Shown in pieces: positions 42,981-47,482 of a stretch of DNA of 64,000 bases. This DNA comes from Thermaurantiacus tibetensis (GTDB lineage Bacteria; Pseudomonadota; Alphaproteobacteria; Sphingomonadales; Sphingomonadaceae). The stretch spans positions 558,001-622,000 of the forward strand of contig NZ_JACHTM010000001.1 of assembly GCF_015354055.1 (NCBI RefSeq), in the 5' to 3' direction. The translations under genes and the position numbers were made by a program. Positions within the stretch are counted from its first letter, which is position 1; each line of letters begins with the position of its first letter. The notes under the pieces are model-generated. The model had not been told where the DNA came from, made no database searches, and saw only the letters and a list, made by a program, of their open reading frames with translations.

Positions 42981-44045
42981 TCAGGGCTGCCAGACGGCGC
43001 CGACGGCCGGGTCGGCGCGTCCTTCGACCAGCAGGTCGAAGGCGGCGGCGAACCCGTCCGGCCCCTCGAACGTGCGGACTTCGAGCCACCGGCTGGCGTC
43101 GGCCAGGAAGGCCGCCATCCGCTCGGCAAGCGCCGCCTGGAAGCCGCCCGGGCCCATGCGGCCTGACATCTCCGCCATGACGGCGGGCGCGAAGAAGAGC
43201 GCCGGCTTCGGCCCGGGAAGGTCGGCGGCGGGCGGCGCCTGCCAGTGCGTGTCGCCGACGATGTGGCTGGCGGCAAGTCTTCGGAGATGGCGGTGGAGGC
43301 GCTGGACGATGGCGCCATTCCCGGCGAAGTCGACGAGCGTGGCCGGGAGATCGGCCGGAAGCTCGTCCAGGGCCTCGTAGGTGAGCACGGAGTCGTAGAG
43401 CCCGGTGCCCTCGACGAAGGCGCGGGCGCGGGGCGAGGTGAGGCCGATGACCTGATGCCCGCCGCGCTTGCGCAGGCACCAGGCGGTGCCGAGCGCGGTC
43501 TTGGACGAGGCGCTCGTGAAGATGAAGGTGTCTGGCCCGGCCTCGGCGCCGCCGGCCAGCGCTGCGTCGAGGGCAAAGGCGGTTCCGAACAGCGGCCGGA
43601 ACAGCGCCGCCATCGGCTCGTCGGCGGGGGTTGGCGCCGCGGCCGCGGCCGGCACGTAGCCGTTGTAGACGGCGGCCATGGGCTGGCGGTGCGCGGCCAT
43701 GTCGGTGAAGCCGCCGCCGTCGCGCGCCCTCGGCACCAGCCGAAGGTGCGAGGCCGAGGGCCAGTAGCCGTAGACGCGCGTGCCTTCCTCGACGCCCGGT
43801 GCGCGCGAGGCGACCACCGTTCCGAAGCCCCAGAGCGGCACGACGAGCCAGTCCGGCTCCGCGGCCGGGAAGAAGGCGCCGTAGAAAAGCGGCGGGCCGT
43901 GGTGGACGGCGTAGGTGACGTTGTTGGCGGTGACCGCCGCGAGGTCGACCCGGGCGATCGCCTCGCCCTCGGCCGGCTCCAGCCGTTCCTCCCGCACGCG
44001 GTGGCGGGTAAGGTCCGCCTTCGCCGTCTCGATCCGGTAGCCCAT
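42981..44045 (-). CDS. DUF2855 family protein
   Basis: 354 aa. The overall layout is that of a quinone-oxidoreductase-like medium-chain dehydrogenase that has lost zinc sites: LAAVTANNVTYAVHHGPPL near the start, WGFGTVVASRAPGVEEGTRV, YGYWPSASHLRL, then a cofactor-domain region FIFTSASSKTALGTAWCLR where GxGxxG would be. I recognise this as DUF2855. The reaction is unknown. It is downstream of hsp20 by 103 bp on the same strand. Confidence 0.82.
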   Translation of the reverse strand: MGYRIETAKADLTRHRVREERLEPAEGEAIARVDLAAVTANNVTYAVHHGPPLFYGAFFPAAEPDWLVVPLWGFGTVVASRAPGVEEGTRVYGYWPSASHLRLVPRARDGGGFTDMAAHRQPMAAVYNGYVPAAAAAPTPADEPMAALFRPLFGTAFALDAALAGGAEAGPDTFIFTSASSKTALGTAWCLRKRGGHQVIGLTSPRARAFVEGTGLYDSVLTYEALDELPADLPATLVDFAGNGAIVQRLHRHLRRLAASHIVGDTHWQAPPAADLPGPKPALFFAPAVMAEMSGRMGPGGFQAALAERMAAFLADASRWLEVRTFEGPDGFAAAFDLLVEGRADPAVGAVWQP

Positions 44046-44148
44046 CGCGCCCTCCCGGTGCACAGGCCTAGCGGGCGTGGGCTGCGAACGAAAGGGGCCG
44101 GCGCTCAGGCCGGCCCCTGCCTCAGGCGTGCGCCCGGAAGATCCCGCG

Positions 44149-44616
44149 TCAGGCCGCGGCCTTCTCGCCCTCGAGGGCGGGCGCGGCAGCGCCGATCTCG
44201 ACCTTGCGCGGCTTCTTGTGCTCGGGCACCTCGCGGACCAGCTCGATGTTGAGCAGGCCGTTCTCGTAGGTCGCACCCGTCACCTTGATCACGTCGGCAA
44301 GCTGGAAGCGGCGCTCGAACGCGCGCTTGGCGATGCCGCGGTGCAGGAAGGTGCGGCCCTCGGCCTTGTCATCCTCGGCCGCGCGGCCCGAGACCACCAG
44401 GCTGTTCTCCTGGACGGTGATGTCGAGTTCCGAGCGGTCGAAGCCGGCCACCGCCATGGTGATGCGGTAGCGGTCCTCGCCGAGCTTCTCGATGTTGTAG
44501 GGCGGAAACGCCGCGTCGGCGTCGGTCATCCGGGTCGCGATGTCGAGAAGCCGATTGAGGTTCTCAAACCCGATCGACGACCGGAGCAGGGGCGTGAAGT
44601 CGAAGGCAGTGCGCAT
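44149..44616 (-). CDS. Small heat-shock protein Hsp20 (IbpA-like)
   Basis: 155 aa from ATG 44616 (AAAGGA at optimal spacing). The N-terminus MRTAFDFTPLLRSSIGFENL is typical of class A alphaproteobacterial Hsp20. The alpha-crystallin domain (about 45-135) includes NIEKLGEDRYRITMAVAGF, FLHRGIAKRAFERRFQLAD and ATYENGLLNIELVREVPE, and a VEI motif near the C-terminus allows oligomer contacts. It holds unfolding proteins during heat stress. Expression is probably heat-controlled twice: by an RpoH promoter at 44717-44744 and a ROSE-like hairpin covering its ribosome site. Confidence 0.95.
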   Translation of the reverse strand: MRTAFDFTPLLRSSIGFENLNRLLDIATRMTDADAAFPPYNIEKLGEDRYRITMAVAGFDRSELDITVQENSLVVSGRAAEDDKAEGRTFLHRGIAKRAFERRFQLADVIKVTGATYENGLLNIELVREVPEHKKPRKVEIGAAAPALEGEKAAA

Positions 44617-44619
44617 GAT

Positions 44620-44708
44620 CCATCCTTTCCCAAGCAATGGTTGCGTTTGTCCCGCCCGTTCCGGGCCGGGGCATCGGCTGCCGGCCCCATCCGGGCACCG
44701 GCGTCCGA
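44620..44708 (-). promoter_or_regulatory. hsp20 leader with ROSE-like RNA thermometer
   Basis: The predicted leader is about 90 nt. Its last hairpin (44640-44620) pairs CCAU with AUGG and places UUGCU opposite the Shine-Dalgarno AGGA across a UGGGAA loop. A UYGCU strand imperfectly paired with AGGA is the defining core of ROSE thermometers on hsp20-type mRNAs of alphaproteobacteria. Upstream lie two more stems (GCCGG/CCGGC and GCCCG-GAA-CGGGC), matching the multi-hairpin ROSE layout. Melting would free the ribosome site. The fold was done by hand. Confidence 0.65.
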
Positions 44709-44716
44709 CACCTGTC

Positions 44717-44744
44717 AGATAGGAGAGGAGGGCCGGGCTTCAAG
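44717..44744 (-). promoter_or_regulatory. RpoH (sigma-32) heat-shock promoter of hsp20
   Basis: On the minus strand CTTG (44744-44741, extended as CTTGAAG) is separated by 17 bp from CCTATCT (44723-44717). This fits the alphaproteobacterial RpoH consensus CTTG-N17/18-CYTATNT at every fixed position. The start would fall near 44708. Confidence 0.75.
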
Positions 44745-44752
44745 GGGCCGCC

Positions 44753-44782
44753 TTGCGCGCGCTTCCCTGGCGGCCCTATGGA
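44753..44782 (+). promoter_or_regulatory. Candidate alaS promoter
   Basis: TTGCGC (44753-44758) and TATGGA (44777-44782), 18-bp spacer, 31 bp before the alaS start. It lies just beyond the divergent hsp20 promoter, so the two -35 regions are back to back. Confidence 0.4.
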
Positions 44783-44812
44783 ACGGCGACCGACGCCAGC
44801 GCTGGACGAGGC

Positions 44813-47482
44813 ATGACATCGACCGACGAGATCCGGCGAGAATTCCTCGCCCACTTCGCGCGCCATGGCCACGCGATCGTGCCCTCGGCGCCTCTCGTGC
44901 CGCGCAACGACCCGACGCTCATGTTCGTGAACGCCGGGATGGTGCCGTTCAAGAACGTCTTCACCGGCCTCGAGACGCGGCCCTACCTGACCGCCGCCTC
45001 CGCCCAGAAGTGCGTGCGCGCCGGCGGCAAGCACAACGATCTCGACAACGTCGGCTTCACCGCCCGGCACCACACCTTCTTCGAGATGCTGGGGAACTTC
45101 TCCTTCGGCGACTACTTCAAGGAAGAAGCCATCCGGCTTGCCTGGGAGCTGCTCACCGGCACCTGGGGCATTCCCGCCGAGCGGCTGACCGTCACCGTCT
45201 ATCACGACGATGACGAGGCCCATGCGCTCTGGCGCCGCATCTCGGGGCTGCCCGAGGAGCGGATCGTCCGCATCGCCTCGTCCGACAACTTCTGGTCCAT
45301 GGGCGACACCGGCCCGTGCGGCCCCTGCTCGGAGATCTTCTACGACCATGGGCCTGGCATCCCCGGCGGGCCTCCGGGGAGCCCCGATGCCGACGGCGAC
45401 CGCTTCGTCGAGATCTGGAACCTCGTGTTCATGCAGTTCGACCAGCAGGCCGACGGCCGCCGCGTGCCGCTGCCGAAGCCCTCGATCGACACCGGCATGG
45501 GCCTCGAGCGCATCGCCGCCGTGCTCCAGGGCACGCACGACAACTTCGCGACCGACACCTTCCGCACGCTGATCGAGGCCTCCGGCGAGCTGACGGGCAC
45601 GAGGGTCGACACGCCGCCCCATGCCGCTTCGCACCGGGTGATCGCCGACCATCTCAGGGCAAGCGGCTTCCTGATTGCCGACGGCGTGCTCCCGGCCAAC
45701 GAGGGGCGCGGCTACGTGCTCCGGCGCATCATGCGCCGGGCCATGCGCCACGCCCATCTGCTCGGCGCGAAGGAGCCGCTCATGCACCGGCTGGTGCCGG
45801 CGCTCGTCCGCGCCATGGGAGCGGCCTACCCGGAGCTCGCCCGCGCCCAGCCGCTCGTCGAGGAGACGCTCAAGCTCGAGGAGACGCGCTTCCGCCAGAC
45901 GCTCGAGAAGGGCCTGAAGCTCCTTGAGGAGGCAACTGCCGGCCTTGCGCCGGGCGCGGTGCTGCCGGGCGAGCTCGCCTTCCGGCTCTACGACACCTAC
46001 GGCTTCCCGCTCGACCTCACCGAGGATGCGCTGCGCGCCCAAGGCCTGGGCGTGGACCGCGCCGGCTTCGAGGCGGCGATGGCCGAGCAGCGCGCGCGGG
46101 CGCGGGCGGCCTGGGCAGGCTCGGGCGAGCGGGGCGCGGAGGCGCTCTGGTTCGACCTCGCCGAGCGGCTGGGTGCCACCGACTTCGTCGGCTACGCCAC
46201 CACCGAGGCCGAGGGCGTGGTGACGGCGCTGGTCCGCGACGGCGCCGAGGTGACCGAGGCCAGGGCCGGTGACCGGGTGATCCTGCTCGCCAACCAGACG
46301 CCCTTCTACGCCGAGTCCGGCGGCCAGGTGGGCGACAGCGGCACCATCACCGGCGAGGGCGGTCTCGTGATCCGGGTGGCCGACACGCAGAAGCCGCTCG
46401 GCCGCCTCCACGCCCATGAAGGCGTTGTCGAAAGCGGCATCGTGCGCGTGGGACAGCCGGTGCGGCTTGCGGTCGATGCCGAGCGGCGGGCTGCCATTCG
46501 CGCCAACCATTCGGCCACGCACCTGCTGCATGCCGCGCTCCGCGACGTTCTCGGGCCGCACGTCACCCAGAAGGGCTCGCTGGTGGCGCCAGACCGGCTT
46601 CGGTTCGACTTCTCGCACCCGAAGGCCCTGACGCCCGAGGAACTGGCGGCCATCGAGGACCTGGTCAACGCCGAGATCCGGGCGAACGTGCCCGCCACCA
46701 CCCGGCTCATGACGCCCGAGGCGGCGATCGAGGCTGGCGCGCTCGCCCTCTTCGGCGAGAAATATGGCGAGGAAGTGCGGGTGCTTGGGCTCGGCCGGCC
46801 TCGCGCCGAGGGCGGCAGGCCCTTCTCGGTCGAGCTGTGCGGGGGTACCCACGTCTCGGCGACCGGTGACATCGGCCTGTTCCGCATCGTCTCGGAGTCC
46901 GCGGTGGCCGCAGGCGTGCGCCGGATCGAGGCGATGACGGGCGAGGGCGCGCGCCGGCACCTGCTGGCCCGCGAGGAGGCGCTGAAGCGCATCGCCGCCA
47001 GCCTCAAGGTGGCGCCGGAGGAAGCGGAAGCGCGCGCTGCGGCACTTGCCGAGACGGTCCGGCGGCTCGAGCGGGAGCTGGCCGAGGCGCGCAAGGCGCT
47101 TGCGCTGGCCGGCCCGGCCCAGGGCGATCCGGTCGAGCGCATCGGAGCCGTCGACTTCCTCGGCCGCTGCGTCCAGGGGGTCGAGCCGCGCGCGCTGAAG
47201 GGGCTGGTGGACGAAGCCAAGGCCAAGCTCGGCTCCGGCGTGGTGGCCTATGTGGCCGTCAACGACGGGCGCGCGAGCGTGGTGGCCGGTGTCACCGACG
47301 ATCTCGTCGGCACGGTCTCGGCGGTCGACCTCGTGCGCACGGCGGCCGCTGCACTCGGTGGCCAGGGCGGCGGCGGCCGACCCGACATGGCCCAGGCCGG
47401 TGGCCCAGACGGCGCCCGCGCGGCCGAGGCGCTCGAGGCCATGCGCGCGCAGGTGCGCGCGGCGCTCGGCGTCCCTGCCTGA
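44813..47482 (+). CDS. alaS: Alanyl-tRNA synthetase
   Basis: 889 aa, full length. Class II catalytic core ([41 protein letters not shown]-like [15 protein letters not shown]), the editing domain with zinc ligands [13 protein letters not shown] and [13 protein letters not shown], and the C-terminal coiled-coil and glycine-rich C-Ala domain ([29 protein letters not shown]). ATG 44813 follows GGACGAGGC. It charges tRNA-Ala and removes mischarged Ser/Gly. ppx begins 4 bp after its stop. Confidence 0.98.

Follow-up and report, generated by a model that had tools for sequence, protein, structure and literature searches.

The 5' leader of an IbpA-type hsp20 gene in Thermaurantiacus tibetensis, transcribed from a putative RpoH promoter, very probably contains a ROSE-like RNA thermometer, with heat opening and translational control as its expected mode of action. 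Coordinates refer to the window, the whole 64,000-nucleotide stretch that was analyzed, and the parts of the leader and gene are as follows.

44738 to 44744, minus strand: RpoH-type -35 element CTTGAAG, at -128, conserved as CTTGA[AC]
44717 to 44722, minus strand: putative -10-like element CTATCT, with a spacing that resembles that of the CYATNT of relatives
44670 to 44712, minus strand: hairpin I, present in MFE and centroid structures, with covarying pairs and a single bulged G at 44696
44651 to 44670, minus strand: hairpin II, CCC-G-GCCC..GGGC-GGG, with a single bulged G at 44667
44620 to 44640, minus strand: thermosensor hairpin (ROSE core) CCAUUGCUUGGGAAAGGAUGG, with a bulged G at 44635 and a CCAU/AUGG closing stem
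44633 to 44637, minus strand: UUGCU anti-Shine-Dalgarno motif, of the UYGCY type present before 124 of 133 IbpA-class genes
44623 to 44626, minus strand: Shine-Dalgarno AGGA, about 6 nt 5' of the AUG
44616 to 44614, minus strand: hsp20 start codon ATG
44149 to 44616, minus strand: hsp20/IbpA-like small heat-shock protein gene, 155 amino acids, Pfam HSP20 at 72.6 bits

At growth temperature, imperfect pairing of UUGCU with AGGA would keep ribosomes off the mRNA, and warming would open the weak bulged-G hairpin so that translation begins. The two GC-rich upstream hairpins are predicted to remain folded on warming and, in these models, do not act as the sensor; protection or presentation of the RNA is their probable role, and IbpA itself may bind them. 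An earlier note had described a last hairpin closed by CCAU/AUGG, with UUGCU set against AGGA around a six-base loop, and each of these parts was located on the minus strand at 44640 to 44620, the six bases between UUGCU and AGGA being UGGGAA. Its two further upstream stems lie at 44712 to 44670 and 44670 to 44651. The extent it gave, 44620 to 44708, captured the element itself with slightly misplaced bounds, and 44712 to 44614 is preferable because the likely transcription start, near 44710, coincides with the beginning of hairpin I.

Folding of the minus-strand segment 44712 to 44614 gave three hairpins, alike in the MFE and centroid structures, with C44670 able to pair in either hairpin I or hairpin II. 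The MFE was -49.3 kcal/mol (z = -2.18), and 5 of 200 shuffled sequences were equally stable, so that stability taken alone is a modest signal; it is conservation that shows the three-hairpin leader not to be a product of chance. The leader has the features by which ROSE-like elements are recognized: a U(U/C)GCU imperfectly paired with the Shine-Dalgarno in the 3'-most hairpin, three hairpins where two to four are expected in the 5' UTR, and a small heat-shock gene downstream, which is typical of the class though not exclusive to it. The earlier reading of the leader as ROSE-like is thus upheld by its conserved core, its several hairpins, and its downstream gene.

In silico, the unpaired fraction of the Shine-Dalgarno rose from 0.12 at 30°C to 0.24 at 45°C and 0.42 at 55°C as the last hairpin opened gradually, with hairpins I and II folded up to 70°C. 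Nearest-neighbor folding thus predicts just partial opening at 42 to 45°C, and for some relatives (e.g., L004, L011, and L013) MFE folding alone did not return the expected last hairpin. In silico deletion of G44635 left the Shine-Dalgarno inaccessible at every temperature computed; deletion of the corresponding core G reduces or abolishes heat induction in elements tested elsewhere (PMC3669281, PMC11342760). Removing this base from hairpin I or from hairpin II, where a G is likewise bulged, had no effect, which weakened the idea that these bases guide folding of the sensor. Any Shine-Dalgarno hairpin reduces translation, and together with the shallow predicted opening this would suit a hairpin that only tunes translation, with no temperature response in the physiological range. 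Such a role is improbable, as UYGCU with its unpaired G has been kept across alpha-, beta-, and gammaproteobacterial relatives and the tested gammaproteobacterial examples are thermometers (PMC3669281).

The earlier note had proposed a search with the Rfam ROSE covariance model, and here the outcome went against a simple family assignment. RF00435 aligned end to end over 44702 to 44610, yet scored 22 bits against a gathering score of 45. None of 20 loci from relatives reached that score (the best, L022, had 28.5 bits), and a scan of the whole T. tibetensis genome with RF00435 gave no match. The leader is therefore not filed as a member of RF00435 and is placed in the wider ROSE-like class. A first lineage covariance model, built from the window and two relatives (L003 and L004), recovered the leader from most relatives, with the match running up to the hsp20 start codon. 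A second lineage model, for which the window sequence was part of the training data, scored the window at 98.7 bits (E of about 1e-19) and found a single copy in the genome.

In blind scans, a match was located in 22 places outside the T. tibetensis genome, 20 of them at an Hsp20 start codon. Among 120 genomes of the order, a few of which coincide with training genomes or with close relatives of these, there were 16 matches, 15 ending at an Hsp20 start codon; they span several other families, and the leaders go down to 38% GC. Among 190 genomes of the class there were six, five of which precede Hsp20 and end at its start codon. Because few candidates are scored per genome, a genome without a match says little. 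One match (L207) lies about 150 bases 5' of a frame resembling a release factor (prfB), close to the end of a contig, and is probably a GC-rich false positive; a weak match (L196, E = 0.09) likewise lacks an hsp20 gene.

A sequence-only MAFFT alignment with RNAalifold recovered the structure only in part, because loop lengths vary among leaders, and comparison was instead based on motif-anchored pairing and covariance models. In a first tally, UYGCU followed by the Shine-Dalgarno was present in 75 of 81 leaders, compared with 4.5% of leaders in which the upstream part had been shuffled. With the Shine-Dalgarno and UYGCY used as anchors only, the four flanking pairs formed in 76% of cases over 92 nonidentical leaders, compared with 25 to 49% in registers shifted by one or two positions; among sphingomonads, the corresponding values were 69% and 34 to 41%. 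Pairs -1 to -3 exceeded shuffles with z scores of about 7 for all leaders and about 4 to 5 for sphingomonads. Pair types at these positions differ among leaders (CG, UA, AU, and UG), so the pairing reflects compensatory change rather than a frozen sequence. Over the whole leader, 27 of 31 pairs had changes on both sides, versus 16.3 for shuffles, in an alignment that was itself fitted to the structure. In hairpin II, six of seven pairs changed on both sides and 96% were paired. The comparison suggested by the earlier note, for compensatory changes in relatives' leaders, thus found them, along with a conserved core, and the relatives are indeed Sphingomonadaceae.

ROSE was at first taken for a DNA element recognized by a transcription factor (PMC4166951), and a conserved sequence ahead of a heat-shock gene could be read in the same way here. 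Compensatory changes and register-specific pairing point instead to RNA structure, making a DNA-binding site highly improbable.

The core also follows the class of the downstream protein. Among 155 distinct Hsp20 proteins, a UYGCY core preceded the start in 124 of the 133 that carry the equivalent of Escherichia coli IbpA Arg93, and in 6 of the 22 that lack it, where four of the six look like chance. The association is strong (Fisher p = 4e-11, for sequences that are not phylogenetically independent), but each of the two tracks membership in the IbpA class, and their co-occurrence is therefore not independent evidence of coupling. IbpA-class paralogues in two relatives (L165 and L127) keep the UUGCU core but have Q or N at the Arg93 position, possibly two cases of lost autoregulation. 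A Sphingomonas subgroup (L019, L024, L026, L030, L096, and L100) has the changed cores AUGCC, AUCGCC, and AUCGCA, in which a G opposite the Shine-Dalgarno may nonetheless stay unpaired.

Each of the three hairpins carries one bulged G on its 5' side, under a short apical helix (44696, 44667, and 44635). To be counted, a hairpin needed four outer pairs with at most one GU and two to four apical pairs; leaders were nonredundant, and expectations came from dinucleotide shuffles. By this measure, hairpin II had the bulged G in 46 of 48 sphingomonad leaders (6.2 expected) and 36 of 42 others (3.6 expected), hairpin I in 31/48 (7.0 expected) and 27/42 (5.8 expected), and the last hairpin in 28/48 (3.4 expected) and 29/42 (2.5 expected). 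Bulged A, C, or U and bulges on the 3' side were mostly close to chance. The largest departures were in sphingomonad hairpin II (3' C, 15 versus 6.3 expected; 3' G, 12 versus 5.8), sphingomonad hairpin I (5' C, 14 versus 8.2), and hairpin II of the other leaders (5' A, 10 versus 5.3). At the pair beneath the bulge, C-G, U-G, and U-A predominate, and the alignment column of the hairpin I bulge holds G in 22 of 24 leaders. At least one bulged-G hairpin occurred at position I or II in 122 of the 124 core-bearing Arg93 leaders; of the two that lack one, L022 reflects a wrongly chosen start codon. An unbulged hairpin II, matching the Rfam consensus, characterizes a group of leaders, numbering 20 of the 124 by a strict test, with at least one start-choice error among the 20. 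A link between loss of Arg93 and loss of the hairpin II bulge rested on two cases confounded by this group and was dropped.

These patterns bear on whether the leader is mainly a site of IbpA autorepression, at which oligomers on the bulged-G hairpins would hold translation off until IbpA is drawn away by aggregates, leaving the thermometer secondary. E. coli IbpA binds its own 5' UTR and represses translation in a manner that requires Arg93, with the oligomer as the active form, and alphaproteobacterial IbpAs retain Arg93 and Tyr34 (PMC10474464). Arg93 is likewise kept in the T. tibetensis Hsp20, as an autorepressed leader would need, and in nearly all UYGCU-led Hsp20 proteins. The hairpin II bulge is enriched far above chance, and in the E. 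coli ibpA leader hairpins with a bulged G sit at -79 and -50, compared with -80 and -50 in the leader described here; a further one lies at -70 in ibpB, another gene under IbpA repression. However, some leaders of Arg93 genes have an unbulged hairpin II, and such a role would leave the Shine-Dalgarno pairing unexplained; the two IbpA-class paralogues that lack Arg93 and keep the core resemble leaders of the unbulged group and are uninformative. Autorepression as the main function is therefore possible but clearly the less probable account, and we retain the thermometer as the primary reading.

The hairpin I bulge is already drawn in the Rfam consensus; in the literature covered, which excludes key papers of 2001, 2003, 2005, 2006, and 2009, we found no discussion of a bulged G repeated in the upstream hairpins. 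The requirement for oligomeric IbpA with Arg93 (PMC10474464) would fit repeated recognition hairpins. Our own, speculative hypothesis, which we consider rather unlikely as a whole, is that most IbpA-class ROSE leaders, from sphingomonads to E. coli, repeat one design, a single bulged G on the 5' side, usually after a pyrimidine and under two to four capping pairs, of which the last copy alone is the thermometer and the upstream copies are docking sites for oligomeric IbpA via Arg93. If true, a single leader would sense temperature and aggregation alike.

Upstream of the leader, CTTGA[AC] at about -128 was conserved in 46 of 48 nonredundant sphingomonad leaders (about 1.4 expected from shuffles), and the motif was also present in 39 of 42 other leaders (about 2.1 expected), counting positions -190 to -88. 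From the position of CTATCT, transcription would start near 44710. The genome contains an rpoH gene, and the conserved CTTGAA -35 element and C-rich -10 element are those of an RpoH (sigma-32) regulon member; a search for a sigma-70-type promoter found none. The conserved -35 motif and the rpoH gene therefore make dual control by RpoH and the thermometer likely, in agreement with the earlier note, with RpoH dependence itself judged from the promoter motifs. In Sphingomonas melonis, heat raises hsp17 mRNA 1,857-fold and the protein 11-fold (PMC10434288), a gap that may fit a translational step without proving one.

The host genome is 2.75 Mb and 100% complete. The best NCBIfam match of the Hsp20 was IbpA at 153.6 bits, below the IbpA cutoff of 212. 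The nearest named relatives were Sphingomonadaceae metagenome bins, followed by Sandaracinobacteroides, Sandarakinorhabdus, Polymorphobacter, and Sphingomonas. Another contig carries a second hsp20 (L001:1492-1962, minus strand), which lacks the ROSE core, and its product (ERSKGTYLRRF) has no arginine where IbpA has the RNA-binding Arg93. About 100 bases 3' of hsp20, on the same strand, lies a DUF2855 gene (42981 to 44051, minus strand) that might be cotranscribed with it. In the interval 44738 to 44813, some 70 bases separate the hsp20 -35 element from the start of alaS on the opposite strand, which makes the two promoters divergent and places them close together.

Known systems share much of this architecture. 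Rhizobial hspA-type ROSE (RF00435) also has three hairpins, a bulged G in hairpin I, a UUGCU/AGGA last hairpin, and a small heat-shock gene downstream, but hairpin II is unbulged in the Rfam consensus and bulged in the sphingomonad leader. The E. coli ibpA thermometer has the same upstream bulged-G hairpins, a last hairpin over the Shine-Dalgarno, and ibpA downstream, but its core is UCGCU over AGGAG and little sequence is held in common; the ibpA and ibpB leaders of E. coli K-12 (L202) show the sphingomonad-like design at nearly identical positions. The short Pseudomonas ROSE-like ibpA thermometers (PMC3669281) also combine U(U/C)GCU, a sigma-32-type promoter, a small heat-shock gene, and a nonmelting GC-rich upstream hairpin, in a leader of 61 to 62 nt with two hairpins, compared with about 95 nt and three hairpins here. 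ROSE-G (PMC12857270) shares the bulged G opposite the Shine-Dalgarno region but has CUGCU and two opposed bulged Gs before ABC transporter genes, in contrast to UUGCU and one bulge here.

The earlier note expected this leader to widen the range of ROSE. That holds for a ROSE-like leader in the sphingomonad order that Rfam misses, although the widening is modest, as such elements were already known in Caulobacter and in diverse alpha- and gammaproteobacteria (PMC3669281, PMC4166951). The role of the 5' hairpins of ROSE leaders is not fully understood and has been stated as an open question (PMC3669281), and the bulged G repeated in nonsensing hairpins offers a handle on it, as well as a single-base test of how IbpA recognizes its own mRNA (PMC10474464). 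For the Sphingomonadales, a ROSE-like thermometer behind an RpoH promoter appears to be the normal arrangement before an IbpA-type hsp20, in leaders that the public covariance model misses and that the lineage model supplied here finds blind.
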